Part shown: in pieces, positions 202 to 58,476 of the stretch
Layout: each line of letters opens with the position of its first letter
How positions within the stretch are numbered: position 1 is the first letter of the stretch
Assembly (NCBI GenBank): GCA_963920765.1
Contig: OY987250.1
Span: 13,570,409-13,634,408 of the forward strand
Reading direction: 5' to 3'
DNA length: 64,000 nt
DNA from: Ulota crispa
Taxonomy: Eukaryota; Streptophyta; Bryopsida; Orthotrichales; Orthotrichaceae
Notes under the pieces: model-generated
Told to the model about the DNA's origin: nothing
The model's database searches: none
What the model saw: only the letters and a program-made list of their open reading frames with translations
Position numbers and translations under genes: made by a program

Positions 202-1112
202 CCCATAAAGGATCAAGCAAAGTTTTTACCAAAAACTATTCAAAATTGCCATTTTTAGAGCATCAACTAAATTTCAAAATAAAATCGCTTTTTTGCACAT
301 GTGATCGTGGGATCTTGTAGAAGAATAATTTTGGAAGATGTGGAAAAAAATTCTGAGTTTTTTACTTTGTGGATTGAAAGATAGAATGGTTTGAATATTC
401 AAAAACATCTTGTGAAATTTGGGTAGCTACCCTTCAAAAGGTGATTATCCTAAGGAAAAAAAGATATGTGGGTGGTACTTCTCTAAATTTTTTATTCCAC
501 CTACGTAAAGTACATGTAAAAAAGTTTCAAATCATTTGGAATTGTATAATACATGGAAAAAATCAGTAAGTAAAAAGAAGTAGAGAATGATTCAAAACAC
601 TAAATTGTTAATAATTTAATTATAGAAATGAAAAATGCCAATCCCAACGGTCATAATGTTGTAATAAATAATCTACATCTTCTAGTTTTGTTTTTTTCCA
701 ACATGTTGGAAATTGAGTAAAATAAAGGACTTCAAAGTTTATTTTAGAGTAGAGAATTCATAACTGCCCACAAACTAAAAGTCCTCATAACTTTCATTTT
801 GTTGATCAAAACAGAATGATTCAAAGCTTCCTACATTCACATAAATCTCCTAAACCAAATTAAAATTTTTGTTTTTGAAAAAGATGATTTTTAAGAAATT
901 TGCCTAGGCTGCCCAATGAACGTAAAAAACAACATATTAGGCCATGAATTTTTACTCTTAATTTCAAATGTCATGAAATTTAGTGCATATGAAAGATAAA
1001 CCTTGTTCCCACATTATATTAAGATTTCAGCCTAAAATATGAAAAGCTCCAATCACAAGTACATGCCCAAAATTGCTATGTTGCTAGAAAAGGGGGTCTG
1101 GTCCTTTAGGGG
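202..1112. mobile_element. TTAA-flanked MITE, subfamily A copy 1
   Basis: A 911 bp element starts CCCATAAAGGATCAAGC and ends GGTCCTTTAGGGG. It is flanked by TTAA at 198-201 and 1113-1116. Closely related copies lie at 34680-34944 (cut by the gap), 35686-36595 and 56739-58476, the first and last of these inverted. There is no long ORF and no transposase, so it is non-autonomous. The TTAA target and CCC/GGG ends fit the piggyBac superfamily; Sola3 is the main alternative. Confidence 0.75.
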
Positions 1113-1290
1113 TTAAATAGAATGCATTTTATAAAAAAAAAGTTTTCAAAGTGTATTTATGATGTCACAAAGATTAGATGAGTGTTATTAGAAAGGGGAA
1201 CACATGATATTACAAAAGTCATCGTGATTATAGTATATTGGTGTTTGGTTAGCGTCAACATTTTGGGCTAGAAAAGTGTTGACCTTATCC

Positions 1291-1670
1291 ATGATCATGG
1301 GAACTACTAGAGAGACATCCCCCAATTGCTAGGGACTTACTAAATTTGAGATATTATTATGTTGAAATATGAAATAAAAGAAAAACAACATTTTAGGACA
1401 CGTCTGCATCTGAGTGTTGCAAATATACAACAGATTTGTCTCATTTGTGACAAGGTTAAGAACTAAACTTACAAATAAAGGGATCAACTAGTTTTAACTC
1501 TTGACTATGTCACAAATGAAACATATTTGTTATATGTTTGCAATGCTTGCAGATGCAGATGTGCGCTAAAATATTTTTTTGATTTTGCTTCATATTTTAA
1601 CATTAGAATAATCTCAAATTTAATAAGTTGGGTTGTAGGGGGTGTCTCCCTAGTCATTCCCTTGATCATA
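1291..1670. mobile_element. Hairpin MITE nested in G1
   Basis: Arms of about 165 bp pair imperfectly. The left begins ATGATCATGGGAACTACTAG and the right ends TAGTCATTCCCTTGATCAT. Shared inner blocks, such as the TGTGACAAGG side against the CTATGTCACAAATG side, pair as well. The related copy at 51.3 kb lacks this insert. Confidence 0.55.
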
Positions 1671-1799
1671 AGCAAACATTCCATTTGCATTACTTTCCCT
1701 AGTTCTAGTGGTTGCAACTTTGGAGGTGCTTTCCAACCCATCAATGCTTTTGATACACTAACCAAACACCTTTCTAACTAATGAGTCAAAATGGGCATT

Positions 1800-2020
1800 G
1801 ATGAACAATTGAGCAGCCCTTTGTGCCTAGTACAATACAAAATATTTTTCTTGTATTTGGAGTACATTCACACCTTTATTACATTTGGGATCAACAAAGA
1901 AGTTAGAATATAGATCAATGCTTTTCAAGTGAGGTAGTCAAGATCCCAAATTTAAATTTTTCTATTGGTAGCAAATGGAGCGTACATTGCATGTATTATA
2001 GTAGCTCAATTGTTCAAGGG
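1800..2020. mobile_element. Partial TTAA element nested in G1
   Basis: The sequence matches the interior of the TTAA element at 40265-40488 (for example the stretch around GATCAACAAAGAAGTTA). It ends GTTCAAGGG followed by TTAA at 2021-2024. The corresponding G copy near 24.1 kb carries an intact GACC-TTAA-CCAAG at that point, so TTAA is the target. The left end is not clear and may be deleted. Confidence 0.5.
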
Positions 2021-3308: not shown

Positions 3309-4981
3309 ATGCGAGGTCCAAGGCTGCCTGAGCCTGTGAGCTTTGGCGAATATCCCGCCATTCCTACGAACGACACTACGTGGACAGAGATGGCGCATAA
3401 CGTCGGCAGAGGCGGCTACGGTGGTTCCAATGTCATGCTTATGCGGAACGAGAGCTCCACCGACTTGTCATTGGCTTCTATGCTCGCGTCTTGCTCTCCT
3501 CTTGCGCTTCAAGGTCTGTCTGTTGTTGATACTGTTGTTGTTGTTGGAGTTTCTTTGTCGTTGAAGAAAGGTTGAGAGAGAGAGATCCTGATCTACACAT
3601 TTCTTGAAATATAACTAACATTCATCTGTTCAACTTTTTAGTTCTTCAAGCTTTTGTAGAGTACCGGTAGTCACTGTCGTGGTCGAGTTTTTCCACCTAA
3701 GAAACCCTGCGAGAGAACTGTATTAGCTTCACATTAGTCTTGCCTTCTTGAATTAGAAGTAATAGTTGTCTTTTCAGCGATTTTGTCGAACGAGGAAGCG
3801 TCTTTGTATTTAAAAGTATAGAATTGTTTAGTTAGAGAGTTTCTAATCAAATTCTCTGCCATTTTGAATCTTGCTTGGCTTTTCTAACATTTTGTTCCTG
3901 TTCATCTGTTGCGTAGTTCGATGTGCAGGTGGAGGCATGGAGGACAGTGCAGCTGTAAGTTATGGTCCGAAGCGCTCCTACTATTCCATGTTTGAAATGT
4001 CGGGAGAAGATCCAGGAGAGGAGGATCTTGGAGACGATTGCACACAACACGTCGAGAAAAAGAGGAGACTTACTTTTGATCAGGTCAGGTCGCTGGAGAG
4101 GACCTTCGAGGTTGAGAACAAACTGGAGCCAGAGAGGAAAATGCAGCTTTCGAAAGAACTCGGTCTTCAGCCTCGGCAAGTGGCAGTGTGGTTCCAAAAT
4201 CGTCGTGCTCGGTGGAAAACCAAGCAACTGGAACGAGATTACGAGGTCCTCTCCTCAGATTTCAACCGCCTTAAAAGTGAACTGGATGCCGTGCTCCTGG
4301 AAAAGCAAGAACTACAGGGCGAGGTACGTTAGTAACACTTTGATTTCAAACGTTTGCCAAAAGAAACAAAGCTCTCTTGCTACTACCACTTCCCCCTGAA
4401 TCCTTGCAAGCTCTCATCGCAAAGAGACCTCACTAAGCACTGAGACGATTGTCATATTTTAAATTTTTTTTTTCCAGAATGATCATCGTGGTGAAAGTAC
4501 TGACACTCTTGTTTCTTAACAGATGGATTGTCTAACGGGAAAGGCATGTAAGCCAGAAGTGAACCCTGCCGATTTACCCGAGAAAACCAAGAGATCAAAA
4601 ACGTCGTCTCAGGCATGCGAGGGCTGCGTAAAGACGGAAAGTAAGGCTGAGCCTGCCAATGTCAGCAAAGATGCATCCAAAGTGGAGGGGCCGAAGGAGG
4701 AAACCATAAGCATCAACAGCGAAATACTAAACGCAGAAAGCCCTCGTACCAGTAACGACAGCAGCGGCGCACTCCTCCCGCTGGACAACATTAACACCAC
4801 ATATCCTCACTTAGTGGACTCTGTTAGCATCACGAATCTCTGCGACCCGTTGCTTTCCCCTCAAGTATGCCAAACCATTTCCGTAAAGCTTGAGGAACGC
4901 TCATTTCAAGACGACTCTTGTAATTACACCTTGACGCAACTGGATGAGGAAAGAGGTCTCCCTTGGTGGGACTGGCCTTGA
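3309..4981 (+). CDS. Class I HD-Zip transcription factor, 3 coding exons
   Basis: This encodes a nuclear DNA-binding protein; class I HD-Zip proteins bind AATNATT-type sites as dimers. Exons I infer: 3309-3513, 3929-4323 and 4523-4981, all with GT-AG junctions (AAG/GTCTGT, GTGCAG/GTGG, GAG/GTACGT, TTAACAG/ATGG) and a continuous frame of 352 residues. The homeodomain spans about 112-170 and contains [14 protein letters not shown] and the helix-3 signature [16 protein letters not shown]. The leucine zipper follows directly, with a heptad series L-L-L-V-L-L; its last leucine comes from exon 3. There is no START or MEKHLA domain, and the protein ends LPWWDWP, an aromatic AHA-like tail typical of class I. 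The central C-terminal part is rich in E, K and S. The start at 3309 is the first in-frame ATG of exon 1; a start at M72 (3937) is possible, which would make exon 1 leader. I cannot assign a subgroup. Confidence 0.93.
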
Positions 4982-5410: not shown

Positions 5411-6814
5411 CTGGTTGCAAAGTTACAGAGTCTCTTGAAGCTATGATGATGGTAACATACCTAGTGGCTCGCTAATATCAGTGATCTTGTTGTTATCACC
5501 GGTCTCGCATGCATACCACGTTTCTTACATCCAGCAGGATTTCAAAACTGGCTTTGAACAAAGTTCGCCGGAGAAGATGCCTGTCGTCATGGCACTTTTC
5601 TTCTCTCGAGCTTTCGAACTGTAAAAAGCCGTAGAGTCAGATACACTTAGAAAGAGAATAAGGAGAATATTCTCTACAAACACAAGTCCCCCGTTTTAAA
5701 GCAACTCGTCAACGATTAGCATCACAGGGTCCACGATCCACCGTCCTAAGCGGGGTCTGATCACTTTAATGCTCCTCTATTTCTGAATTAGACGATTAAT
5801 TTAGATGTTCAAAGCTGTGCGACCTGGTCCAAATACATTGACTAACGATTTCCGAGATCGGGGTAACGCTTCTAGGTCAACGAAGGTCTGTATCTATGGA
5901 ACCAAAACGACGAACCTGTGCATTGTATCTCTCCACGTGTTTTGTTTTTTTGATATTCTACCATTCCATACACTTCTTGCTTGTTGTGAAAAGTACCTAA
6001 GGATTTGCTTGTTCTAACTTAACTTTCCCCGAATATAATGAAGCTCCTTTCGTTCCGCACTCTCTGAAGGGAAATGCGTACTTTCTTGCGGGCCTGACTT
6101 TTTTACTTCTATGACGTACAGTACAAGCTTCTTCGAAAAAATAAAGAAGGAAGAAACCTCTACCGTAGTAGTGAAAGTAGTGGTACGAAGTGCCCGGAGA
6201 TCTGAGTATCATTTGTAATGAAACGATCGCATAACACTGTTAGTAGTAATATCAACGAGATTAATTCAAAGTGTGAACGAATTCCTAAGTAGTTTCAATT
6301 GCAAGCCCTGATTCCCCCGGTTATGCTGTTAAATCATGGTTCTCATTACACAATCGTACAAGGCTTGAAGAAAGCGAAAGATTCTTTTACCTTCCAAAAT
6401 GGAAAAGCACTGTCCTGGATTACTGTTTTGCTTTGAGGTAGAGCGAGGGTTTCACTGCTTTGCATAAGCTTAATCGAATAATTTTCCGATAAAAGATTCC
6501 TCCTCCGGACGATTCTTGTGATTCTTGTCCTCCTTGGTCTTGTTCGCCTCTCTATAATGACGTAGCTCGTGAGGCCACCTGCAAGTACAGAGGAGCATTT
6601 TAGACCATTATCGCTCTGAGCGTGCAAAGCAAGAAAGGGCTCCTCTCTCGTCTGCCACTGTGCCAGACGGGGCCAGACCTGTAGCTCTCGTACAGCGAAG
6701 ACTTCAAGTGTGAAGGTTCTTTCGAAACTGCAAGCGTCGTCTCTTTATTGCTCTCAACAGCCTCTCTCTCTCTTGTACAACCTCCTCCGCGTTCTTCACC
6801 TTCACTCTCAAACT
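5411..6814. other. Intergenic, no gene recognised
   Basis: Base composition is balanced, unlike the repeat-filled regions, and no MITE ends are visible. The open frames are short and unlike known proteins. A CT-rich stretch (CCTCTCTCTCTCTTG) lies near 6760. It may hold regulatory or non-coding transcribed sequence. Confidence 0.4.
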
Positions 6815-8875: not shown

Positions 8876-8881
8876 AAATTT

Positions 8882-9194: not shown

Positions 9195-9500
9195 TTAAAA
9201 TTTTAGCACATACAACATTGACCCCTAAAAGCACAAGAAGACATTTTTTGTCCCTTGGTCTTCAAAAAAATACTCTTGGACAAGAAAAAGCCGTTTTTCA
9301 TATGGATTTTTGTAGAAGTGAACATATATACAGGTGCACCATGGAAGGCAAATAGCAACCTCACCAAATGCACTCATATTTTTAGGTAACCTAAATTGTG
9401 AGAAGATTTAGACTTGGTGTTAGGTTCTATGTTGTCTATTTGCAAATTTCATGAGGTTAGTATACACTATCAACTTTTGTAGCTTTTGGAAACAATGTTA

Positions 9501-9732
9501 TAAGATAGGATACTCTAATTCAGACCATGCTCTAATTTGGACTAGCTCTAGGAAGGGTTGACATTTTATATCAAATATTTATTATTGTCATTAATGAGTT
9601 AGGTGAGTTTAGCAAACCTGCTAAGCTCACCTAACTCATCAATGATAGTAATAGATATTTAATCTAAAATATCAGCCTTTCCTAAAGCTAGTTCAAATTA
9701 GAGCATGGTCCAAATTAGAATATCCTACCTTA
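9501..9732. mobile_element. Hairpin MITE with TAAGGTAGGA ends (F1)
   Basis: A 232 bp palindrome. The left arm starts TAAGATAGGATACTCTAATT and the right arm ends AATTAGAATATCCTACCTTA; the centre pairs GAGTTAGGTGAG with CTCACCTAACTC. Ends of the TAAGGTAGGA type recur at 23790-24735, 28866-29194 and 48971-49193. Superfamily uncertain. Confidence 0.7.
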
Positions 9733-10671
9733 ATGGGTGGGCATTTTGCCACACCGTTGTAGACCATTGTAGACCATTGTAGACTGGCAATGTAGAGCTA
9801 TTGTAGAGGAGCAGTTACGGTAATCAATCGGGCGTATAAGGGTTAAGAAAGGACTAGAATCAATCATTGCAATAAGAACGCCATATTGAAATGAATTGGG
9901 AAAGTCCAAACTCCAAAAATAAGAATATGATTTTTGATTTTCCTGAACATATATGCAAAAAATTGAGAGATTTCCCAAATTTTGCTTATTCCAAAAGTAA
10001 ATGAAAAATTAAAGAGTCTAAAATTATATGAAAAACCTCGATTTAAAAAGATGTGGCATAAGAGTATAATGGGATCTTTTTTGGTTTGAAGGTTTGAGGG
10101 TCTTCAAGCCATATAGGCAATTAACCCTTTTTTCACTAGGTCTTAATTTAAAATTAAAGTACAAAGCCTACAATACACCAAATGTCATGGTTATAATGTC
10201 ATTTGAAAGGTAACTGAGTCGGTTTTGTATCAAGTTTCAAAATCCCAAGTCAATGAAGTTTGTGTTAGTTAGCAAGGTTTTCAATGAGGTAAGATCAAGG
10301 TTAAGATCAAATTTGAAATTGTCATGTTATTATTTCCTTAATTAGAGATTTTGGTTGTCATATATGATCATATTTTGTCATTTTTTGTCTATGGCCTTCT
10401 TCTTCCTTTCTTTGGTCTTTGTGATTATCCATAACTGCTAGCAAAGTTGACAAATTTCAGTTGTTTTTGGTTTTTTGCAACTGACATTGCTATAACTAAA
10501 ACGTTGGGACAATAAATTGTATGTCCCATTGAGGTTTTGTAGCTAATACACTCTACCTTTAGCAAATATTGTTCAAAGGGGAAAAAAATTGCACTATTAA
10601 GTAAAGGACTATGATACCTTTCTATATCAATAAACCTAGATTTGAAGCAACTACCTGCAAGATATGGAGAT
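9733..10671. other. AT-rich, no gene seen
   Basis: A short tandem TGTAGACCAT run lies near 9763-9785. TTAACCC at 10121 resembles one end of a TTAA element, but no partner end was found. Confidence 0.45.
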
Positions 10672-10675
10672 TTAA

Positions 10676-11582
10676 CCCCTAAAGGACCAGCTATCTATTC
10701 AACGGACAAATGGGATTTTGGGCATGTACCTATGGCCAAACTACTTTGCATTATTTTTTAAAACTTTTATTGAAGATGTGGAATTCAAAAATCTGCATGG
10801 GCATCTAATTTCTATTCCAATTGATGCCAAGGAGCAAAAGTTATGCCCAAATAAACACAAATTTGGGGACTCCGGGTAGCAAAAAGAATTCTTATAAATA
10901 CTTGAAATTTTTTTTCTCATAGGTTATATCTTTGTCTACATCTGAAGCTTTGATTCATTCCACTTGGACTAGTTATGAGAAAGTTTTGGACAATCTTGTT
11001 TTTTGGGCACCTCAAGCATCTTCTTGAAAAAATAACTTATAAACTTCATTTTTGAATGCAATTTTAACATTTTTTCAAAAAAATTTGTTGGAGAGGGTGA
11101 AGTTTGCTTTCTAGAACAATCTCACCATTGGGATCATTGCATTTCAATTCCATTGCAGGGTTATTAGCAATTTAAGTTTTTGTTCAATCTCATACCTTCT
11201 TCTACCTAATGTTTTTTTTAAAGAATGAAAAATAATTATTTTTTGTTTTTTTTTCCCCAAGATTACCAACTCAACTTCCCACCATGCAAAAATAGAATTC
11301 CAAACTTTGTGGTGCAAAAATTTTAAGTTAAAACTCAAAGTCAAATAATCTAATCATACAAGGTGCAAAAAAAGCCATTTTTTACTTTTTAAATGCAAAT
11401 GTCTTCCAACCTGTATGGTCAAAGTTCTTGAGTTTTGTATGACACATTCTTATAGTAGTCTAGTACAAGATCCTATGGTTAGATATGCAAAAAGACCAAT
11501 TTTCAAACTTGTTTACTCTTTGCCATAGAGGTGGCAGTTTTGAGTGTCTTTTGACAAAATAAAGGCCATGGTCCTTTATAGG
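10676..11582. mobile_element. TTAA-flanked MITE, subfamily C copy 1
   Basis: A 907 bp element starts CCCCTAAAGGACCAG and ends GGTCCTTTATAGG, with TTAA at 10672-10675 and 11583-11586. It pairs, in opposite orientation, with the copy at 36965-37884, sharing the stretch around TGTCTTTTGACAAAATAAAGG. It is non-coding. Confidence 0.75.
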
Positions 11583-11586
11583 TTAA

Positions 11587-15677: not shown

Positions 15678-15681
15678 TTAA

Positions 15682-15922
15682 CCCTTGAGCGCCCGCAAGA
15701 CATTATAATATCTCTCAAAAATCTGGGTCAACTCAATTTTGACCGATATAATCTCATTGCACGTTTGGTGAAACCACTTCCAATCTAGTCCAGCATGATG
15801 GAGATGCTTTCCACTAACAATTAATATGGTATGATCTTGTAGATTGTATTTTTCAATCCACAAGGGCACTTTGATTGCACACAAGTCAAGCTTTTTTCGT
15901 TTCAACTCTAGGTTCTCAGGGG
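15682..15922. mobile_element. Short TTAA-flanked element
   Basis: A 241 bp segment starts CCCTTGAGCG and ends GGTTCTCAGGGG, between TTAA at 15678-15681 and 15923-15926. The ends match only over about eight bases. The 126-codon minus-strand frame that crosses it also runs into the next element and is not treated as a gene. Confidence 0.5.
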
Positions 15923-15982
15923 TTAAAACAAAAATGACCTTTAGCAAAAATTGCCATGTTGGCTTGGAACTATAAAACTTAA

Positions 15983-16701
15983 CCCCTAAAGGACCAAGCC
16001 CCCTTTTGGGGGACAAATGGGATTTCGGGCATGTACTTATGGCTAAACTACTTTGCATGATTTTTTGGAAATTTTATGGATGATGGGGAATTCAAAAATT
16101 TACATGGGCATCTATATTTTTCTTCTTTTTGACATTTATTGAAGAAGTCAAAAATGAATTTTTGGAAAATGGGCAAGATTGGATAGCCCAAAAACTTCTT
16201 TTAAAAATTTCATTTAAAAAAAATTAAAAAATGAAATAGGTTCTTTAGACTTATATATACATAGGGAGTTTTGAATCATTCAATTTTGATTGATGAAATG
16301 AAAGTTTTGAGAAGTTTTTGTTTGCAGGTAGGTGTGGTTTTGAGAGAAAACTTACCTACCCGCAAACAAAAACTTCTCATAACTTTCATCTCATCAATCA
16401 AAATTCAATGATTGAAAGCTCGCCCACCTATATATAAGTCTAAAGAACCTATTTCATTTTTTTATTTTTTTTAAATACAATTTTTAAAGAAATTTTTGGG
16501 CTGCTCAATCTCACCCGTTTTTGGAAATTCATTTTTAACTTTTTGAATAAATGTTAGAATGAAGAAAAAATTAGATGCCTACGTAGATATTTGAATTCCA
16601 CACCTTCAATAAAAGTTTTAAAAACCACAAAAAATAGATTAGTTGTAGGTACATGCCCAAAATCCATTTATCCCTCAAGGGGACAGTTGATCCTTTACGG
16701 G
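15983..16701. mobile_element. TTAA-flanked foldback element
   Basis: A 719 bp element starts CCCCTAAAGGACCAAGCC and ends GATCCTTTACGGG, with TTAA at 15979-15982 and 16702-16705. It is one long hairpin with arms of about 350 bp meeting near 16343 (TTTTTGTTTGCAGGTAGGT against ACCTACCCGCAAACAAAAA). Each arm matches the same half of subfamily B, so it looks like a head-to-head derivative of that family. Confidence 0.8.
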
Positions 16702-16705
16702 TTAA

Positions 16706-17981: not shown

Positions 17982-17985
17982 TTAA

Positions 17986-18245
17986 CCTCTAAGCGTCACA
18001 AACAAAACACTGGTTTAGACAAGCTTGAGAGATTGTTTTAAAAAAAATGGAATAACTTGGAGTGTAAGAAGTTACCAAAAAATTCACCATATAGATTTGC
18101 TAGCAACTTCTTGGCAAGTGCAAATCTATAATTTGTATAGAAATCCACTATATGGATACATAGATTATAATGTTTGATGACTGATAAATTCAGATTTTTC
18201 TTCAATTCTTTGCGTCCAAAAAGCGTCCAATGTGACATTTAGGGG
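17986..18245. mobile_element. TTAA-flanked MITE, subfamily E
   Basis: A 260 bp element starts CCTCTAAGCGTCACA and ends TGTGACATTTAGGGG, with TTAA at 17982-17985 and 18246-18249. The 15-bp ends differ at only three positions. Confidence 0.7.
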
Positions 18246-18251
18246 TTAACA

Positions 18252-18830: not shown

Positions 18831-18871
18831 CATTTAGTGTAGCTCCCGTACCTGCGTCGGTGCCTTTTACC

Positions 18872-22173: not shown

Positions 22174-22177
22174 TTAA

Positions 22178-22536
22178 CCCTTCAAGGACTGACCCTGAAC
22201 CTGTGGCTCAGTTTAGGAGGGTGTGCACTGTTCATGGGCAGCCAACAGCCTGTGGCATGTGTCCAAGAGAGATAATATTCTTTTCGAAAGAAGGAAAAGT
22301 CAATAGTGTATCCTACCCTCACAAAAAGGGCAACAGGGATCTTGTACATTTTTTTACAAATTGGTGTTTTAAAAAATATGGAGGCATTGAAAGCAGCTAC
22401 TTTTGACATTTAGTGATGTGGCACATCGCTCTGACCACTTTCAAGAAAAAAGATTTGAAAAAACTATATTTTTCCACCCTTTGGGTGTGTTTTTGGCACT
22501 AAAAGGACGATTTTTGTCCTCTTGGACGGTTAGGGG
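22178..22536. mobile_element. TTAA-flanked element, weak ends
   Basis: A 359 bp segment starts CCCTTCAAGGACTGACCC and ends CTTGGACGGTTAGGGG, between TTAA at 22174-22177 and 22537-22540. The right TTAA is shared with the next element. Confidence 0.55.
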
Positions 22537-22540
22537 TTAA

Positions 22541-22612
22541 CCTCTAAAGGCCCAAGCCATTTTTTTTGTGAAAAACAATTAAAAATGCCACTTTTGAGGG
22601 AATGAGAGGAAT

Positions 22613-22656
<44 letters not shown>

Positions 22657-23473
22657 AAATCCAACCGTAGGATCTTGCTCTAGACAGCACGAGGTACTTG
22701 GGAAAAAAAATTGAGCTTATTCCAAATGACAAGGAGTGAGATTTTTACAAATGAAGTGAAGAAAAAAGTTTTTTTCATACTGCCCAAAAATTTCACATGC
22801 CGTTGATCACTCCTATACCAAAAAGTTTGCTCTACGCAAAGTTGAGTTGTAGGAGACCAAGTTAGGTATGTGTGGGAGAATTTTCCAATCAATTGGAACC
22901 ATACAACACATGGGAAAATATAGTAAGGAAAATGAAGTAGAGAATGGGTCAAAACACTAATTTGTTAAGAATTTAATTATTGAAATGAAAAATGCAAATC
23001 CCAACGGTTATAACGTTGTAATAAACAATCTACTTCTTTTGGTTTAGTTTTTTTCCAAAATACGGAAAATTGAGTAAAATAAAGGACTTCAAATTTTATT
23101 TCAGAGTAGAGAATCTATAATTGCCCGCAAACAAAAACTCCTCATAACTTTCATGTCATTCATTGAAATTGAATGATTCAAAACTTCTCATGTATGAAAA
23201 AATCTAAAGAACCAATTTCAAATTTTTATTTTAAAAATATATAACTTTTAAAGAAGTTTTTGGGCTGCCCAGATGGACAGCCCTCCCAAAATTTCAGAAA
23301 AACATGCATAATTTCTTCAATAAATGTCAGAATGAAGAATTTTTTGATGCCCATGTAGATCTTTGAATTCCCCATCTCCCATAAAAGTTTCAAAAAAATA
23401 CATAAAGTAGTTTACTCATAGGTACATGACCAAAACCCAAACGGTCCCTGAAGGGACAACGGGCCTTTAGGGG
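22541..23473. mobile_element. TTAA-flanked MITE, subfamily B copy 1
   Basis: A 933 bp element starts CCTCTAAAGGCCCAAGCC and ends CGGGCCTTTAGGGG, with TTAA at 22537-22540 and 23474-23477. Its length equals that of copies 2 and 3. A (TA)n run of about 36 bases lies at 22616-22651. Confidence 0.8.
22616..22651. repeat. (TA)n microsatellite
   Basis: An uninterrupted TA dinucleotide run inside subfamily B copy 1; the same region is not expanded in copies 2 and 3. Confidence 0.9.
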
Positions 23474-23477
23474 TTAA

Positions 23478-25204: not shown

Positions 25205-25208
25205 TTAA

Positions 25209-26141
25209 CCCCTAAAGGACCAAGCCCTTTTTTCAATGAAAGTTACTAAAAATTGCCACTTTTGGGGGAATGAGTATAAAGGTAAGAAAAACAATCAATT
25301 TTGGAAACCCAACCGTAAAATCTTGCCCTAGACTACAAGAGGTACTTGTGGGACAAAAATCAACTCGTTCTAGATGTCAAGGAGTGAGATATTGACATCT
25401 GAAGTGAAAAAAAAAAAAAAAAAATCCCTATTGCCCAAAAATTTCAAAAGCCTTGGACTGTCCCTAAATCAAAAAAATTGCTCTACACAAAGTTGAGGTT
25501 TATTTTTTCCATGTAGAAGACCAAGTCAGGTCAGTGTGGGAGAATTTTCAAATGAATTGGAGGTGTGAATCATACTTTGTAAAATCTTGCAATGCCGTAA
25601 GGTCATGAAATTTGCATATACACTAGGCAAAATTGGAGGAATTATGTAAAATTCAGAAATTTAAACTACTTTGATCCAAATGGTGAAAACCAAGGAATCT
25701 TAGTCTACTACAACTTGGAAAAAAATGAAGTCAAAAAACAAATTCACAAATAGCACAAAAAAGTAAAGCACCAAAGGCAAAAGGAGTGGAAGTATGGGAG
25801 TCATGTACCTGCCCGCAAACAAAAACTTTTCACTTAGAAATCAAAATTGGATGATTTAAAGCTCCCACATATGTATAAATCTAAAGAACCAATTTCAGAT
25901 TTTTATTTTGAGAAAATCTCATTTAAAAAAAAAATGGTTGCCCAATCTCCTCTATTTTTCAAAAATTCATGCATAACTTCTTTTAATAAATGTTGGAATG
26001 AAGGACAAATTAAATGCTTGCGGAGATCTTTGAATTCCCCATCATCAATAAAAGTTTCAAAAAATCACACAAAGTAGTTTAGCCATAGGTACATGCTCTA
26101 AATCCCATTTATGTCCAGAAGGAACAATGGTCCTTTAGGGG
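25209..26141. mobile_element. TTAA-flanked MITE, subfamily B copy 2
   Basis: A 933 bp element starts CCCCTAAAGGACCAAGCCC and ends TGGTCCTTTAGGGG, with TTAA at 25205-25208 and 26142-26145. Its right TTAA is the inner boundary of the long inverted repeat. Confidence 0.85.
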
Positions 26142-26658
26142 TTAACAAGCATTTCCAAAAAGCTTCAAAGCTCTTTTCAAAAAGATTTCTATGTTGAGGT
26201 GCCCATGTCCAAATTTTATAAAATAGACATTGTTTCATGGTGATTGGATATTTCTACTTGACTCATATACTATGACTAAGTTTGTCCCTTTGAACGTGAT
26301 GATATGTTTACTTTACCAAAAACTACTTAGAAACTAAAATATGTATTTTACAAAATTGAGTCATACCACACTTCACATTGAAATCTTCATAGTACATATT
26401 GTGTTTCCATAATAGGATTTAATTTAACATGGAAGATGTGCGTATGAATGTTTGCTACATATATATGCAATCAAATCTCGAAGATTCATCACCAATGTTT
26501 TTCAAGCAGTTATTATGTAAAACCATGAATATTACGGAGTGTATATCACCAAAAATGGGGATTTCAATTTCTTGGAATTGGAATTTGGTGTGCATGATCA
26601 AAATTGCATAAGACTTCAATATCAATGATGCAAGATAAAAAAAAATACCCAATTACTT

Positions 26659-34679: not shown

Positions 34680-34944
34680 CATGGCCTTTTTCCTTAGGAA
34701 TTTCACCTTCTGAAGGGTAGCTGCCCGATTTTTCACAAGACATTTTTGAATATTCAAACCATTGTAACTTCTAATCCACATGGTGGAAAAATTTGAAATT
34801 TTTTTGACATCTTCTAAAACTATTTCTACAAGATCCTATGGTCACATATTCATAAAAATGACATTGTTTTCAAATTTGGTTGATGCTCTAAAAATGGCAG
34901 TTTTGAAGAGTTTTTGGTGAAAACTTTGCTCGGTCCTTCAAAGG
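34680..34944. mobile_element. TTAA-flanked MITE, subfamily A copy 2, partial
   Basis: Inverted relative to copy 1. It ends GGTCCTTCAAAGG followed by TTAA at 34945-34948. The other part lies in the gap. It matches the first 265 bases of the copy at 35686 in reverse. Confidence 0.7.
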
Positions 34945-35065
34945 TTAAAGGTGCCATTTAATTCCAAAAATGACTGTTCATTCTTGAATTGTTATTGTTA
35001 ACTTGATAAACGTTACTGCCCAAAACGACTTTAGAAAATACATACTCCATATTAAGGACCTTTCT

Positions 35066-35535: not shown

Positions 35536-35685
35536 CTTGTACACAAAAAAAAAACGCAATAATAATGGTTCATTTTGCAGGTTAAATTGAATTCTTACTC
35601 TTCAAACTTGTATAGATCTTAAGTTTTCCTACCAATCTATGCAAATAACTAAACGTTTCTATTTCAAAGCTCACCACAGGTTTAA

Positions 35686-36595
35686 CCTTTGAAGGACCGA
35701 GCAAAGTTTTCACCAAAAACTCTTCAAAACTGCCATTTTTAGAGCATCAACCAAATTTGAAAACAATGTCATTTTTATGAATATGTGACCATAGGATCTT
35801 GTAGAAATAGTTTTAGAAGATGTCAAAAAAATTTCAAATTTTTCCACCATGTGGATTAGAAGTTACAATGGTTTGAATATTCAAAAATGTCTTGTGAAAA
35901 ATCGGGCAGCTACCCTTCAGAAGGTGAAATTCCTAAGGAAAAAGGCCATGTGGGTGGTGCTTCTCTAAATTCCTTATTCCACCTAAGTAAAGTACATGTC
36001 TAAAAAGCTTCAAATCATTTGGAGTTGTATAACATATGGAAAAAATTTAGTAAGTAAAAAGAAGTAGAGAATGATTCAAAACACAAAATTGTTAAGAATT
36101 TAATTATGGAAATGAAAAACGCCAATCCCAATGGTTGTAATGTTTTCATAAACAATCTTCATCCTTTAGTTTTGTTTTTTTTCTGAAATGTTGAAAATTG
36201 AGTAAAATAAAGGACTTCAAAGTTTATTTTGGAGTAGAAAATCCATAATTGCCTGCAAACAAAAAATCCTCATAACTTTCATTTTGTTAATCCAAACGGA
36301 ATGATTCAAAGCTTCCTACATTCACATAAATCTCCTAAACCCATTTTAAAATTTTGTTTCTAAAAAAAGTGATTTTTAAATACTGCCCAAGCTGCCCTTC
36401 GAATATAAAAAACAACGTATCAGGCCATAACTTTTTACTCATAATTCCAAATGTCATGAAATTTAGTGCATATGAAAGATAAACCTCATCCCCACATTCT
36501 TGTAAAATTTCAGCCTAAAATATGAAAAGCCCCAATCACAAGTACCTACCCAAAATCTCTATGTTTCTAAAAAAGGGGGTCTGGTCCTTCAAGGG
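35686..36595. mobile_element. TTAA-flanked MITE, subfamily A copy 3
   Basis: A 910 bp element starts CCTTTGAAGGACCGAGC and ends TGGTCCTTCAAGGG, with TTAA at 35682-35685 and 36596-36599. The right TTAA directly starts another CCCCTAAAGGCCC end. Confidence 0.8.
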
Positions 36596-36599
36596 TTAA

Positions 36600-36960
36600 C
36601 CCCTAAAGGCCCATTGTTCAAACAAGCGACAAAATTGATCATGGGCAGATTTGTTCTATTGGGATTTTTTGTTGAATTTTTTAATTTTTTTCTTAAGATA
36701 GGGTTATGTGGAGATTTTTTTTTTATTGGAATTGGATATACTATTCAAAAGTTATGAGTGTCTCACTATTTAAGAACTCCCCAAGTTAGTATTATGATTG
36801 TATGAGCACACTAACGACTTCACTAAGAGTCTTCTATAGCATCTCCTACACATAACTATAAATTTTTAGTGATTTTGGACTTCAAAAGATCTTTGTGAAC
36901 AAATACCTGCAATTGGAACTTTCAAATTGATGCCAATATTTTTAATTTCTCCTTCCTAAC
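36600..36960. mobile_element. TTAA element fragment
   Basis: It starts CCCCTAAAGGCCCATTG at a TTAA shared with the element before it. No matching end is found before the next element begins, so it is probably truncated. Confidence 0.45.
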
Positions 36961-36964
36961 TTAG

Positions 36965-37884
36965 CCCCTAAATCCCTAGGGCCTTTATTTTGTCAAAAGA
37001 CACTCAAAATTGCCATTTCTATTGCAAAGAGGAAAAAATTTGAAAATTGGTCTTTTTGCATATCTAACCATAGGATCTTGTACTAGACTAGTATAGGAAT
37101 GTGGAAACAAAAATTCAAAAACTTTGACCGCACATATTGCAAGATATTTGCATTCAAAGTGTAAAATACATACTTCTTTGTACCTTGCATTACTAAACTA
37201 TTTGACTTTGAACTTTTTTAACTTAAAATTTTTGCTCCACAAAGTTCTGAGGTTTATTTTTGTATGCTGGGAAATTGAGTTGAGAATCTTTGGAAAAAAA
37301 TCAAATCAAAAAATACTTAACTTTTCATTCTTAAAAAAAACATTAGGTAGAAGAAGGTATGAGATTGAACAAAAACTTAAATTGTTAATAACCTTGCAAT
37401 GGAATTGAAACTCAATAATCCCAATGGTGAGATTGTTCTAGCAAGCAAACTTCACCCTCTCCAACACTTTTTTTGAAAAAGTGTTAAAATTGCATTCAAA
37501 AATGAAGTTTATAAGTTATTTTTTCAAGAAGATGCTTGAGGTGCCCAAAAAACAAGATTGTCCATAACTTTCTCATAACTAGTCCAAATGGAATGGATCA
37601 AAGCTTCAAATCTAGACAAAAATATAACCTATGACAAAAAAAACAAAAAAAAAAAATTCAAGTTTTTGTAAATTTTTTTGCTACCCAATTTGCATAAATT
37701 TTTGCTTATCTAGGCATAACTTTTGCTTTTGGGCATTGATTGGAATAAAAATGATATTCCCCAAAAGCTAATGTGTTTTCCTATCTTCAAAAATAGTTTA
37801 AAAAAATCTATAAAAAAATTGAGGTTGTAGGTACCTGCCCAAAATCCCATTTGTCCCCTGAGGGGACACTCAGGGATTTAGGGG
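36965..37884. mobile_element. TTAA-flanked MITE, subfamily C copy 2
   Basis: A 920 bp element starts CCCCTAAATCCCTAGGGCC and ends CTCAGGGATTTAGGGG. Flanks are TTAG (36961-36964, one change from TTAA) and TTAA (37885-37888). It is inverted relative to 10676-11582. Confidence 0.75.
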
Positions 37885-37954
37885 TTAACACTATTTTTTT
37901 TCAAAGTTCATCAACTGGGATTCCTACTTATGGGTGTTCCTACCTTATTTAATA

Positions 37955-38311: not shown

Positions 38312-38659
38312 TAACTTTTTTGATGAATGATTCAAGATTCTTTTTATCATTTTCAATAAAAGCCTCAAATTGACATGCCACTTTGAAATGTTTGCAAGAT
38401 AAAAGACATTGCTATTTTCAAATTCAGCATTCATTTAGTGGTCCTAAAAAATGTAGCATACATAATATACTTGCATGGAACATATTATGTTTATGAAAAT
38501 GGATGGATTGTATTCATTCAACTATGATACACAAGTGGATGAATTTTATTGTACATCTAGGATTCTAGGTTTTTAGTTTTAAGTGGTTTATGAATTTTTG
38601 AAAGTTTTGACAAAATAAGCACTACTTATAAAATTCTTGGGGGTTAGGGAGAAATTTAA

Positions 38660-39711
38660 CCCCTAAATGCTTGAGGCACCAAAACTGGGTGTTGACAATA
38701 CTTAACCAACATGAGTTGCTATTTTGAGTTGTGTATGTATTTGAATTATTCTTTTTGAAGTATAGTTTTAGCAACAAAAATCTGATTTTGAAAGTGATTG
38801 ATTATAATTTTTCTATTCAAGACTTTGGGCAAGGGTCTTGACTTTCTATAGTGTTGAGAGCTTTTGGAAATGAGCCTCAAATACATTAGATCTTGGAGAA
38901 AAAATTAAACTAGAGATTAATTTAAAAAATTGTAAAATAGATTTTGAAATTATAAACTTATTGGAGGTATGTATGTTATGTCTTTTGACCTTATATTGTT
39001 TTGGTGACCAACTTTTTAGATTCAACATGCAAAAAGAAAAATGAAAGACTTCAAGTCATTTTGCAGTTTTAACACCCTCATGATTAAACATTATAACCTT
39101 TTGATTTATAGTGAGAATTGATATGTGCTCACCTGGGGTTTGATATATGCACCCCATGTGGGGTAAATTTTAATTTTTTACCGTCAAAGAGTTGAATTTG
39201 AAATTTTGAATTCAGATTTGGACTTAGAGACCTTGATTTAATCTATCTATAACCATAAAGGAGGTTACAATTGAACAACACCTAATGAAAAAGCTTACCC
39301 TTTTTTACAAACATAAGTAAAAGTAATAGTTTGCACCTTACCTAAGCTTTTTCATTTGGTATTGTTCAATTCTAACTTCTAGTATGGTTCAATTCTAACT
39401 TTTGGTACGGTTCTACACTAAATCAAGATCTCTAAGTACAAATCTAAATTCAAAATTTTCAAATTCAACTTTTTGATGGTAAAAATCTAAAATTCATCCC
39501 GCGCATATTTCAAACCCCATGTGTGTACATATCAATTCCCTTTATAATTGATATTATTGTGTTTTCTTTTCCTATGTGATCACTAACATATCTAGTTTGA
39601 ATTTGTACAATTACAACTAAAAAAATTGATATAGCTTATTAAAATGTTGACTTTTTAGTAGATTTAGAGCAAATCCCTAGAAGCTCTGAAAAAGCCTCAG
39701 GCATTTAGGGG
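38660..39711. mobile_element. TTAA-flanked element with nested hairpin MITE
   Basis: A 1052 bp element starts CCCCTAAATGCTTGAGGC and ends GCCTCAGGCATTTAGGGG (17 of 18 end bases match), with TTAA at 38656-38659 and 39712-39715. A family I hairpin lies inside at 39116-39537. Confidence 0.8.
39116..39537. mobile_element. Hairpin MITE, family I copy 2, nested
   Basis: The left end is AATTGATATGTGCTCACC and the right end finishes GTGTGTACATATCAATT. Inner arms match copy 1 at 13403-13817. Confidence 0.75.
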
Positions 39712-39929
39712 TTAAAAAAACGCCAGCCGGTTTTCAGCTTGGAAGCCTGACATTCCTTGACTCTTTTTGGATCATCTTATCAGAGACAGCCACGTGGAGT
39801 GTTTTTGCATGTTGGCAAGGAGAATAAAAATATTAGGATTCCCGCCACAAAGAAGTTCCCGCGCTGAAACGAAACGTTGAGGCTCTAGGACGAAAGTTTC
39901 CAAAGCAGCAACGAGCGAGATCGAGAAAC

Positions 39930-40260: not shown

Positions 40261-40264
40261 TTAA

Positions 40265-40488
40265 CCCTTAAAAGATCAAGGAGCCCTTTGTGGTCAATAA
40301 AGTATTTAAGATTTTCTTGTATTTGGAATGCATCCACACCTTTACTACATTTGAGATCAACAAAGAAGTTAAAATATAGATCAATGCAATTCTAGTGAGC
40401 TAGGCAAGATCCCAAATTAGAACTTTTTATTGGTTGCAAATGCCAATTATATAGCAACATATTTACTATATATAATACACGTAGAGGG
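40265..40488. mobile_element. Short TTAA-flanked element in the repeat array
   Basis: A 224 bp element starts CCCTTAAAAGATCAAGG and ends ACGTAGAGGG, with TTAA at 40261-40264 and 40489-40492. Repeat-array units lie on both sides, so it split the array. The interior matches about 1800-2020. Confidence 0.6.
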
Positions 40489-40615
40489 TTAACGATTGAA
40501 CGAACGAAGAGTGAAAATTCAGTTCGTTCGTTTTTTAGTTGGAGGATTTCGTCCAATGTGCTTCTTGAGTAAGGTTTCAACAGTCAGCCAGTTCCGCCGG
40601 GCCAGCTGCGGTGTC

Positions 40616-50302: not shown

Positions 50303-50305
50303 TAA

Positions 50306-50594: not shown

Positions 50595-50598
50595 TTAA

Positions 50599-50818
50599 CC
50601 CCTAAACGGCCCAAAGGTCCTTTTTGGTTGTATGTACAAGTTTAATACGTATCAATCATGATCACATAATGCTCCAATTTTTATTGTGAAAACCTTAATT
50701 ATCAACCACAATCACACAATGCTTCACTTTGTGATGTTTTGCACTTCTTGAAATTTGGTGAAGACAATATTTGATTGATATGACCTTGTATCTCTAGAGC
50801 CTTAGGACCATTCAGGGG
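50599..50818. mobile_element. Short TTAA-flanked element
   Basis: A 220 bp element starts CCCCTAAACGGCCC and ends GGACCATTCAGGGG, with TTAA at 50595-50598 and 50819-50822. It abuts the Harbinger-like MITE, whose TTA lies within its TTAA. Confidence 0.65.
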
Positions 50819-50822
50819 TTAA

Positions 50823-53782: not shown

Positions 53783-54189
53783 AATTAATATATGTGTCAC
53801 ACCTTTTCAACTATTTTACCACACCTATTATATATGACCAATACTTAGGATATTATAGTAGGTGTGGACAGCAAGCTAAAAATTACTAATTTGAAATTAC
53901 AACCTAACATAAAAGTTGCAATTTCAATTTTTTTTCAACTCTAAATCTCAGTCATAATATTGATTAAAAAATCTAAATCAAACTTAGCATGATTTAAATC
54001 TTTTAAAACAATACTATAAGCAAGATTTAGAATTGAAAAATAGAGTTGAAAATACAATTTCTATATCAAATTGCCTTTTCAAACTAGTGATGTTTTGCTT
54101 GTAGTTTACACCTACTATAATATTGTAATATTGGCCATGTATAGTAAGTGTGGTAAGAAAGTCAAAAAGGTGTGATACAAACATCAATT
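53783..54189. mobile_element. Hairpin MITE, family I copy 3
   Basis: A foldback of about 407 bp. AATTAATATATGTGTCACACC pairs with the end finishing GGTGTGATACAAACATCAATT, and TATTATAGTAGGTGTGGAC pairs with GTTTACACCTACTATAATA. The ends are similar to 13403-13817. Confidence 0.65.
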
Positions 54190-54848
54190 CCCATATCAAT
54201 ACTGGCAACTTGAAGTCTAGTTGATGCCACTTCAACTTTTTTGGCAGGTGTGCTTGTAGTAATAAGCAAAAGCTCTCTCATGAATTGTATTCACTACTAA
54301 AATTTGGAGGTGAAGCAACAATTGAAGCAAATGTTTTGGAACATGCAATAGCAACATTTTTTTCTTCACTTGGAGCTACTCATAAAACGAGTTTCAAACT
54401 AGAGAAGTCAACACTTGTCAAATATTGAAATCAACAATTCTCCCAGTATTAGAAACCAATTCAAAATAGACATATCATTCAATCCCTTAAATTTGAAATG
54501 ATTTTTCAATAATATGAGCAACGTTTTTGGTGTTGCTAGAGGAGAGAAATGTAGTAGCAAATGTGCTTGTCTTTGAAGTTACTAAAAGCTAGTGGTCAAA
54601 TCTAAACATGACAAACATCGTACAGTTAACCAACAATGTTTATTTGTGCCGTCTAAATGCCACATGTGATAACAAATTGCTTTACAAATTTGTGGCCAGC
54701 TTCTATGCTGGTCTAGAATTGGTCACAAGTTTTTTAACAATTACTAATTTTGGAAAACTCCAATCTTTGTATTTCTTGTACTTCATACAAAAATCTTACC
54801 AAAATATCATATCAAAATTTTGATTCTATTGTTTTCTAAGGTTAATAG
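54190..54848. other. AT-rich, no gene seen
   Basis: No gene or repeat end recognised apart from the variant of the 53617 phrase. Confidence 0.4.
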
Positions 54849-55116
54849 TGCATTTAGGTTGCTTTACCTTGAAATTTACATTAAGACTCACTACTTGGAC
54901 ACATGGAGGTGCTTGCAATTTTTAGATATTAAGATTTCTTACGGTTTACAACATGGACATTGCTAGTTTGATTTTCCACAACTTCATTATTGTTGTTAGG
55001 TCTTTTAAATCTTGTTTATTGCAATAATTATTAATGAAAATTACTATAGTATTAACAAATGTTTATATAGTGTGAAATGTTAAAAAAAATAGTGTGATGA
55101 GACAACCTAAACGCAA
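54849..55116. mobile_element. Family J MITE, copy 2, uninterrupted
   Basis: It begins GCATTTAGGTTGCTTTACC and ends GACAACCTAAACGCAATATT. It serves as the empty-site version of copy 1 at 18252-18830: TCTTTTAAATCTTGTTTATT stands where that copy has the Mutator-like insert. Confidence 0.65.
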
Positions 55117-55208
55117 TATTTAGTGAAGGCACTTTCCATGCATGTCAGTAACTCTTTTTTCCTTTTCTTGCTTTTCCAATTCCAAACCACCATGGAAGCC
55201 GACCTTTA

Positions 55209-56218
55209 GGGCTGCTTCACACTGTGGCCAACCAAGTGAAGAGGCCGTGGGATTGAGTAGCCAAACTTTGTTGAGAGACCAAAAAATGTGCTGAAAATGG
55301 GCAATAAAACATTGTTTTTGACACCTTTGGTTGCGTTTAGTGTGAAGCCTCCAAAGGTCAAACCTAAAATCCAAAGTCATAACATTTATTAGACCTCCAA
55401 ACTCTAACAACCAAGATTTTGTGAATTTTTGATTTACTTTATAATTTTTTTGACAGTCTCTCAATCACAGTTTGGGTCTCCATTTTTGCTTGATTCAAAC
55501 TTTTCTTGAGAGGCCATTGCTTTGGATGATATAGTGCTGCCATGTAGACATTTGGAGAATGACAACCTTTGAACTTTGGCCTCTAGTGTGAAGGGCCAAG
55601 AAACCAAACTCTACACCAAACATTGCAATAGGCTACTTTAATAATTAGGTTGCCTTACTTTGACAAAGTTACCCCATGACTCACCCTTGGCCACTTGGAG
55701 GAGCATGCAACTCTCTTTATGCTACAATAATTATTGGTTATGTGTAAAATTCCAAGTTCCTTGCTCCTTGGCTTTAGTGCTTGTTGCTCCGCCAAACCTT
55801 TGTTTGCCTCCTCCATTATTCATCACGGTATTTATTGACAAAAGTGAATATAGTCTTGGAAAATATTTAAATAGTGTGAAATGTCAAGAAATTAGTATAG
55901 GGCAACCTAAATGCACAATTTGGTGCAATGATTGGGGAGAACCGGCCGGTTGAAATTGCAAAAAGTCCGTTGAAACCTAAAACTACTAGATACAAAACTA
56001 GCCATTTTTCTCCAAAAATCTAATTATATTATATTTCATTATATTTATAGAATTTCCCAAGAAACAACGGGTCCATGCTATTGAAAAACCAATTGAAATT
56101 GAAAAATACTGGATTTTCACCAATGAAATTGACATTTCTCCCCAAACACTAATTTGATTTAGGTTACTTACAATCTGATTGGTGCCTCTCGACCTTTGGC
56201 CATAGTGTGAAGTGGCCC
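55209..56218. mobile_element. Harbinger-like element with nested J MITE
   Basis: It starts GGGCTGCTTCACACTGTGGCC and ends GGCCATAGTGTGAAGTGGCCC between TTA at 55206-55208 and 56219-56221. Inside, AGTGTGAAG motifs recur (55339, 55588), and a family J MITE lies at 55643-55914. A shorter element ending near 55597 is an alternative reading. Confidence 0.55.
55643..55914. mobile_element. Family J MITE, copy 3, nested
   Basis: It begins AATTAGGTTGCCTTACTTTG and ends GGGCAACCTAAATGCAC; the interior matches copies 1 and 2. Confidence 0.65.
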
Positions 56219-56221
56219 TTA

Positions 56222-56734
56222 TTCCATGTTGTTTTGGCCAGGACTTGTACTTCATGAGGCCATGAAACTCATACGGCAACTCTTACCCTCTCTCCTGTCG
56301 GTTTTGCTGGCCTGATTTCCAGTACATGATATTGACATTGATACAGTAAGGCAGCATGCATGCAATTTGTACAGTTTGCATGTCGTTGAATATCCAGGTA
56401 TAAACTTGACACCTTAGTAAAAAGAAACTTAGGATACACTTTCCTCTAATGTTTGGTTTCCAAAAGGACACCTACCAAAATTTTCAGATTTCAAAATAAA
56501 AGAAAAGGAAATAAAAGAGCCGTAAAATATTGCATCTCATAGTCTTATAACGCGCAAATATTGGATTGAATTTTCAAAAAACTGATAGGCTAGGTTGGAT
56601 TTTTTTCATTTATTTGAGCGTACATGGGACACCTCGTTTTTTTGGGGGGGGGGGGGGGGGGGGGGCGGTTTCAAAATGAAAACTTAGAAAAGAAATGATT
56701 TTAAACAAGTGCACCATTTTTTGAAATTGAGGGT
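56222..56734. other. Unassigned spacer with poly-G tract
   Basis: A run of 22 G lies at 56644-56665. Otherwise no gene or element end. Confidence 0.5.
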
Positions 56735-56738
56735 TTAA

Positions 56739-58476
56739 CTCCTAAAGGACCAGACCCCCTTTTTTAGAAACATAGCGATTTTGAGAAGATACTTGTGATT
56801 GGAGCTTTTCATAATTTAGGCTGAAATTTTAATAGAATGTGGGGACAAGGTTTAGCTTTCATATGCACTAAATTTCATGACATTTGAAATTATGAGTAAA
56901 AAGTTATGGCCTAATATGTTGTATTTTACGTTAGTTGGGCAGCCTGGGCAGATTTATAAAAATTACTTTTTTCAAAAATAAAAAATTTAAATTGGTTTGA
57001 CCCCTAAAGTTCTTTTGTGCTTAGAGGCCCAAAACTGCTTCAAAATACTAGTTCCAAAACTAGGTCAAAATCTTCATTGAAACTTATTTTTTAACAAATC
57101 CAATTGTAGGATCCTTTGGTTGACTTGCACAAGTACATTGTCCCAAAATTTCAAAATGATTATCCGCACCATTTGCAAGATCAATGTGCCTAAACTTCAA
57201 AATTTAGGCTTTTCTAGTCCTTCCAGAAGGTGAAGTTTTGTTTTTCAAACTTTTTAGAGAAAAACACATATGTTGTATTTCTTGTGCAATTTTTGCAATA
57301 CGTTGGAAAATGGGTTGAAAGCATATATACAAAAAAAATAGACAAAAAAAAATTTGGATTCATTTTTACAAAAATTGTAAAGTGAAAGGTATTGATGAAT
57401 GAAAGATATAACTAATATGTTGATAACTTTTGGAAGAATTTGAAAATTGTTAATCCCAATGGTAAGAATGCTCTAATAGACAATTATTAACTCCCCTTTT
57501 CATTTTCATTTGAAAATTTTCAAAAGTGAGAATAAAAAATAACTTTATATGTTTTTTCTACCCTCTTCCCACCTTCATTGCCCACAAAATAAAACTCCTT
57601 TTAACTCTTACCTCATTATTTGGAATTGAGTGGTTCAATTTTCTTTGAGCAGGTATCAATCTATAATGTTTTAAATTTTAAAAAAATTAAAAATAGAATA
57701 TATTTTTTGCTGCCCGATTTGTCATTGAAATTGATAAAACCTTATAACTTTTGCATTACTTATTAGAATGACATGAAATAAAGCTTCCCATGTAGATTAT
57801 GACAAGTAGCATCCATCCTAAAAAATTCATGAAAAATTTCCAAATTATGAAATCAATAGAGCCTGCTTGAGTTCTCATAAAGCCCAAAGTGGGTTCCTTG
57901 GGCCTTTAGGGGTTAAGAGATTTATGCAAATGTAGGAAGCTTTGAATCATTCCGTTTTGATCAACAAGATGAAAATTATGAGGATTTTTTGTTTGCGGAC
58001 AATTATGGATTCTCGACTCCAAAATAAACTTTGAAGTCCTTTATTTTACTCAATTTTCAACATTTTGGAAAAAAAAAAAAAAAAAAACTAAAGGATGAAT
58101 ATTGTTTATGACAACATTATGACCATTGGATTGGCATTTTTCATTTCCATAATTAAATTCTTAACAATTTAGTGTTTTGGACTATTCTCTACTTCTTTTT
58201 ACTTACTAATTTTTTTTTCCTTAGGAATTTCACTTTTTTGAAGGGTAGCTGCCCGATTTTTCACAAGACGTTTTTGAATATTCAAACCATTCTATCTTCC
58301 AATCCACGCGGTGAAAATGTCTGAATTTTTTTTCCACATCTTCTAAAACTATTCTTCTACAAGATTCTACGGTTACATATGCATAAAAAAAAATTTGCTT
58401 TCAAATTTGGTTGATGCTCTAAACATGGCAGTTTTGAAAAGTTTTTGGTGAAAACTTTGCTTGGTCCTTTAAGGGG
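56739..58476. mobile_element. TTAA-flanked MITE, subfamily A copy 4, with nested element
   Basis: It starts CTCCTAAAGGACCAGACCCC and ends TTGGTCCTTTAAGGGG, with TTAA at 56735-56738 and 58477-58480. Inverted relative to copy 1. It is split by another TTAA element (57001-57912). Without the insert it is about 820 bp, somewhat shorter than other A copies. Confidence 0.8.
57001..57912. mobile_element. TTAA-flanked MITE, subfamily D, nested
   Basis: A 912 bp element starts CCCCTAAAGTTCTTTTGTGC and ends CTTGGGCCTTTAGGGG. Flanks are TTGA (56997-57000) and TTAA (57913-57916). Other A copies carry GGTTTAGGAG, unbroken, at the same place, which fits a 4-bp target duplication. Confidence 0.8.

Follow-up and report, generated by a model that had tools for sequence, protein, structure and literature searches.

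Animal piggyBac transposons are characterized by a CCC start and by insertion at TTAA (PMC10813416, PMC2872659); their inverted ends of 12–19 bp generally have the terminal motif CC[C/T]T (PMC2872659), and in the piggyBac of T. ni the C-terminal zinc-binding domain attaches as a dimer to a palindromic 19-bp repeat that lies just inside the left end, at about bp 17–33 (PMC7351741). The subject of the present analysis is a set of elements with C-rich inverted ends and TTAA flanks, found in 64,000 nucleotides of contig OY987250.1 from Ulota crispa (the whole stretch is referred to below as the window), of which they make up about 19% (12,042 of 63,800 bases in 16 spans, a figure that takes in the weak candidate at 9218 as well as the copies at 32130, a duplicate, and at 34680, which is partial). 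They are called here TTAA-specific and piggyBac-like, and not confirmed members of piggyBac.

The coral CMITEs, which are animal miniature inverted-repeat transposable elements (MITEs) of the piggyBac/TTAA type (PMC2872659), have in common with these elements the duplication of TTAA, the short CC-rich inverted ends, the lack of a transposase of their own and the insertion of one element into another; the set described here differs in its plant host, in the CCCCT start, in a length of about 930 bp and in an interior homology that extends across deeply diverged subfamilies. The likeness to T. ni piggyBac (PMC7351741) consists of TTAA targeting, of two ends that differ inside and possibly of a palindrome following the inverted end; compared with that autonomous transposon, the elements of the window are without a transposase; the sequences were compared over the terminal motif. 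Sola elements are comparable in that they, too, are present in plants (PMC9033089). Another point of comparison is given by the Stowaway and Tourist MITEs of plants, likewise non-coding, bounded by terminal inverted repeats and present in many copies. These, however, duplicate TA or TTA/TAA and have other end sequences; a 4-bp duplication, as in the elements of the window, is a further feature of Sola.

Termini, flanks and the target site duplication

At all of the 16 positions listed in the initial annotation, an end close to CCCCTAAAGG adjoins TTAA or a sequence that differs from it by one base (TAAA at 32134, TTAG at 36965, TTGA at 57001). Matches to TTAACCCCTAAAGG with at most three mismatches number 39 in the window, against 7.75 ± 2.86 in 100 shuffles; ends defined as TTAA followed by C, with at least six of eight matches to CCCCTAAA, come to 30, whereas 200 shuffles yield 3.5 on average and 9 at most; and nine inward-facing pairs with matching ends are formed (shuffle mean 0.02, maximum 1), one of which is wrong, joining ends from two nested elements. 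A chance origin of the ends is ruled out by these shuffles. Since most of the 28 ends analysed below were found by means of a query anchored on TTAA, the conservation of their flank is partly circular, and a count that ignores the flank is the fairer test: the exact CCCCTAAA occurs 22 times, 14 of them after TTAA, four after a one-base variant (TTGA twice, TTAG and TAAA) and four after unrelated bases, two of the 22 sitting in the inverted duplicate at 32132–34479.

Fourteen elements have both ends in the window. The consensus of their inverted ends is CCCCTAAAGGACC, the two ends of an element matching over about 12–18 bp in most cases and poorly in those at 15678 and 22174. The CCC...GGG termini claimed at the outset are borne out, C being found at positions 1, 2 and 3 in 28, 27 and 24 of the 28 ends; position 4 is C in 21, T in four, A in two and G in one, and position 5 is invariably T. 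In the flank, T, T, A and A are present in 28, 28, 27 and 27 ends, respectively; the whole TTAA, of which the 64-kb window contains 430 instances, adjoins 26 ends and stands on both sides of 12 elements, the other two having TTAG or TTGA on one side. Nothing comparable to the conservation of the flank motif is seen in the eight bases farther out; A directly precedes TTAA in only one of the 28 ends, which may reflect an additional preference in the choice of target. When the ends were sought elsewhere, a 21-base pattern gave 0 matches in viral contigs, and a 17-base pattern matched eight bacterial contigs, by rough estimate no more than expected by chance.

The duplication of the target can be read directly at one site. 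The element at 56997–57916 is nested, as had been proposed, inside E56735, a relative of the elements at 198–1116 and 35682–36599; with the three aligned, the empty site of the two uninterrupted relatives is GGTTTAGGAGATTT, and the filled copy reads GGTTTGA-element-TTAAGAGATTT. The empty site holds a single TTAG, so that one TTAR has become two after insertion, and in its maximal reading the duplication comprises four bases; the TTAA duplication claimed earlier is upheld by this one comparison of aligned relatives together with the flanks. It follows from the nesting that 56739, once listed as an element of its own, is one end of a host whose other end lies at 58476, the two being split by the element at 57001. 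In two places a single TTAA is common to neighbouring ends (22174–22540 with 22537–23477, and 35682–36599 with the end at 36596).

A family of long, collinear elements

Eight of the elements, each about 930 bp long, are homologous and collinear with one another, seven of them measuring 915–941 bp and the eighth, without its insert, 830 bp. In pairwise searches among the eight, 12 of the 28 pairs can be aligned almost from end to end at 57–85% identity and 15 align partly, again collinearly, while one pair (E25205 and E56997) gives no alignment; once 60 bases have been trimmed from each end, 27 of the 28 pairs exceed z = 10 against 40 shuffles each, the exception being the same pair (z = 1.6), both members of which still match the other elements. 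A multiple alignment of seven gives pairwise differences from 14% to 55%, corresponding to Kimura two-parameter (K2P) values from 0.16 to 1.0. The family profile was built from seven elements, which it finds by construction; beyond these, it detects the duplicate at 32132–33070 and the partial copy at 34680, picks up the eighth element as three separate pieces and each half of the foldback, and also recovers a right end in reversed orientation at 36596–36766, the best match in the reversed window, used as a control, having E = 0.6.

Other elements are of a different kind: the interiors of 38656–39715 and of the weak candidate 9218–9846 stay near shuffle level (highest z 2.8), and those at 15678, 17982, 22174 and 50595, which were compared by pairwise search, give no long-family match at E 1e-4, the one at 22174 matching only 9218 (E = 1.3e-7). 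The earlier proposal of subfamilies that differ inside and keep their ends therefore stands in so far as subfamilies exist and five of the 14 elements share only the ends, but it does not describe the eight, which are homologous inside as well. The Repbase rule for non-autonomous elements (PMC4455052) asks for target site duplications of equal length and for ends that differ at no more than one of positions 1–11. By this rule, 11 of the 16 elements tested fall into one group, those at 22174 and 35682 into a second, and those at 15678, 50595 and 40261 stand alone; the second group joins the first because its interior places the element at 35682 among the eight.

The history of the family appears to include more than point mutation. 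The outer parts of E22537 resemble E25205 (63–86% in windows of 75 columns), and its middle 300 columns resemble the elements at 198 and 35682 (76–92%), which shows that middles have been exchanged in one of these lineages. The subterminal region on the left is unlike that on the right, each being alignable among the eight; internal direct repeats, sought in two elements, are only short and weak, and RNA folding gives z of about -2.6 in two elements (20 shuffles each), a value that includes the end-to-end pairing. The long family is a single old lineage, its members almost uniform in size, that was diversified by mutation, by the exchange of internal parts and by the inversion of an end.

In having inverted ends and many copies, and in being non-coding (as judged on the eight long elements; see below), the elements agree with the definition of MITEs; the length range of 50–800 bp adopted in a survey of plant MITEs (PMC12550479) accommodates those of 228–367 bp and is exceeded by the long family (915–941 bp, one 830). 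A more far-reaching proposal, for which we would claim rather less than an even chance, is that a land plant harbours here an expanded TTAA-specific system, which would be either a new superfamily or a plant clade of piggyBac that has been overlooked, and that its non-coding elements of about 930 bp represent one self-perpetuating lineage that kept its full length through 40–50% divergence; if this were so, the interior would matter for mobility. A collinear non-coding family of this kind provides a test of the need for an interior in the spread of a non-autonomous element.

Coding capacity, the transposase and alternative classifications

The longest stop-to-stop frames of the eight long elements measure 56–103 aa, which is within the range of 60 shuffles of each, and a coding interior was rejected on the ground that the frames are no longer than in shuffles. 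Pfam searches, carried out with stops masked as X, returned no transposase in the six frames of 6500–15678, 17200–22173, 22174–26145, 26146–34479, 35682–39715 and 50000–64000, or in the + frames of 40500–50000; of the 26 stop-to-stop frames of at least 110 aa in the window ten were tested singly. For the frames scanned, the statement of the initial annotation that the window holds no transposase is thus confirmed. Besides those of the RAD21 type, the Pfam matches were all below the cut-offs, namely DUF7838 (0.019), THAP (0.5), Extensin_1 (1.1e-4, falling on a tandem repeat), DUF3695 (0.063), DUF3678 (0.074) and IL8 (0.055); Rfam gave 0 matches in the window.

The elements are probably non-autonomous cut-and-paste DNA transposons, TTAA-specific and piggyBac-like, and moved by a transposase of the piggyBac type, because TTAA and the CCC...GGG ends fit piggyBac better than the other superfamilies compared. 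Such a transposase would be encoded elsewhere in the genome and act in trans; it would recognise the inverted ends of about 12–18 bp, perhaps together with conserved subterminal DNA, excise the element, insert it at TTAA and duplicate TTAA. The assignment to piggyBac, already made in the initial annotation, is favoured by TTAA and by the CCC ends, but two observations weigh against it: the ends start with CCCCT and not with CC[C/T]T, T occupying position 4 in 4 of 28, and the scanned frames contain no recognisable transposase. A palindrome centred near bp 28 of the left end in seven of the eight long elements (mean score 5.94, against a shuffle mean of 4.03 and a maximum of 5.31 in 200 shuffles) resembles the subterminal palindrome of T. 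ni piggyBac and is to be taken as a hint only, since the palindrome of the right end is weaker (4.10, shuffle maximum 4.25), that of unrelated elements is within the shuffle range (4.15, maximum 4.55), a neighbouring control stretch of the left ends (bp 76–89) is raised almost as high, to 5.50, by the TA microsatellite of one element, and the choice of the test, which was applied to related ends, came after the sequences had been seen.

Other transposases have to be considered. One of the Sola type, and more precisely a Sola3-like one, could also move the elements, Sola3 using TTAA as well; Sola is known in land plants, as Sola1 in Physcomitrella and also in Capsicum (PMC9033089), and 2739 elements are reported from the fern Ceratopteris (PMC6890710), so that Sola would be a plausible source in a plant. 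The named plant examples, however, are Sola1 or unspecified, and the open literature searched yielded no Sola3 termini for comparison; we regard this origin as unlikely. Not very likely either is a TTAA-targeting superfamily without a name so far, perhaps specific to plants, in favour of which it can be said that the CCCCT start differs from the four named piggyBac motifs CACTA, CCCTC, CCCTT and CCCAT (PMC10813416) and that a survey of 207 plant genomes distributes MITEs among five superfamilies plus Micron, TTAA being absent from its main text (PMC12550479). End motifs drift, nevertheless, and a difference of one base is a weak basis for a new superfamily.

The palindromic nature of TTAA leaves room for a different reading of the duplication itself, namely as TA, with Tc1/mariner-like elements ending in ACCCC...GGGGT and preferring TTAA; indeed, the empty site of the nested element, taken alone, fits this reading also. 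It is very unlikely in view of the outermost T, present in 28 of 28 ends, and of the full TTAA in 26 of 28, the outer T, which never varies, and the A that matches it arguing for a duplication of TTAA rather than of TA; moreover, the window contains a Stowaway-like element whose ends are quite unlike these. TTAA is duplicated by Kolobok transposons as well, but they have next to no likelihood and are excluded on their terminal bases, 5'-RR...YY-3' (PMC9587614), against the C with which all 28 ends start here.

In the open literature, to which the search was directed (subscription papers and Repbase being outside it), TTAA-inserting elements are little described in land plants. This statement is tempered by an abstract that names 'insects, fungi and plants' as the sources of isolated piggyBac elements (PMC10813416), by a plant review that includes PiggyBac among the superfamilies (PMC10794571) and by the repeat table of Ceratopteris, with 1230 PiggyBac-labelled elements (PMC6890710), so that plant piggyBac annotations do exist; in a review of land-plant transposable elements, Sola is counted among the plant superfamilies with terminal inverted repeats and the word piggyBac occurs 0 times (PMC9033089). 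Were the class common in the lineage, an annotation like that of PMC12550479 (five superfamilies plus Micron, up to 800 bp) would overlook it, and plants might have a TTAA transposase of their own.

Inventory, possible rearrangements and neighbouring sequences

The features of the window are collected in Table 1. The 16 positions originally taken as separate elements all have real ends, but the one at 32134 lies in an inverted copy and is not an independent insertion, and at 40265 the right end (about 40492) matches poorly; this weak candidate (40261–40492) has 83% similarity over 166 bp to 1812–1977. Additional ends, beyond the earlier list, are those of the weak candidate 9218–9846, the reversed right end at 36596 and the partial copy 34680–34948.

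Table 1. Elements, genes and other features of the window
Feature	Coordinates	Strand	Remarks
E198, full-length, ~930 bp	198..1116	+	TTAA both sides; 85% identity with 35682–36599
HD-Zip gene	3868–4332		Pfam Homeodomain + HALZ
Weak candidate	9218..9846	.	TTGA/TTAA flanks, ends imperfect
E10672, full-length, ~930 bp	10672..11586	-	TTAA both sides; 82% identity with 36961–37888
249-bp element	15678..15926	.	only end motif common to family; TTAA both sides
727-bp foldback	15979..16705	.	two inverted copies of the long family's right (3') ~350 bp
268-bp element	17982..18249	.	only end motif common to family; TTAA both sides
367-bp element	22174..22540	.	right TTAA is the next element's left TTAA
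E22537, full-length, ~930 bp, mosaic	22537..23477	+	ends like E25205, middle like E198/E35682
E25205, full-length, ~930 bp	25205..26145	+	TTAA both sides
Copy of E25205	32130..33070	-	in 2348-bp inverted duplication
Partial element (left part)	34680..34948	-	100% identical to E35682; cut by N gap 34480–34679
E35682, full-length, ~930 bp	35682..36599	+	right TTAA common to end at 36596
Right end of truncated family member	36596..36766	-	profile E = 1.2e-8; partner end not found
E36961, full-length, ~930 bp	36961..37888	+	TTAG/TTAA flanks
Stowaway-like element (name presumed)	37955–38311		ends CTCCCTCC...GGAGGGAG
1060-bp element	38656..39715	.	only ends common to family; its two ends match in 17/18 first bases
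Weak candidate	40261..40492	.	right end matches poorly
RAD21/Rec8-type cohesin gene	about 42900–49600	+	Pfam domains of the N and C terminus not in the same frame
228-bp element	50595..50822	.	only end motif common to family; TTAA both sides
E56735, long family	56735..58480	-	830 bp without nested insert; host of nested element
E56997, full-length, ~930 bp	56997..57916	+	nested in E56735; TTGA/TTAA flanks

Two of the copies belong to a region that may have been rearranged. The segment 23796–26143 recurs inverted at 32132–34479 with one mismatch in 2348 bases; the inner breakpoint of this duplication coincides with the right end of E25205 and its outer end with the gap 34480–34679, beyond which the sequence resumes with 270 bases that repeat, inverted and at 100% identity, the beginning of the element at 35682. 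At both junctions the end of an element is only a few bases away. The inverted duplication and the copy at 34680 may be real element-linked rearrangements, recent copies or movement, or an assembly fault; the copies at 32130 and 34680 are not countable as independent old insertions.

As to the neighbouring genes, the presence of the HD-Zip gene within the window indicates a plant host, the HALZ domain being a plant marker; the N- and C-terminal domains of the RAD21/Rec8-type gene, lying in different frames, imply the presence of introns. Several families of other long hairpin repeats, whose ends do not resemble those of the TTAA elements, are represented at 8874–9205, 13400–13820, 18390–18749, 35087–35503, 39106–39547 (enclosed by the element 38656–39715), 48971–49193 and 53777–54194; the arms of the one at 48971–49193 match at 97%.

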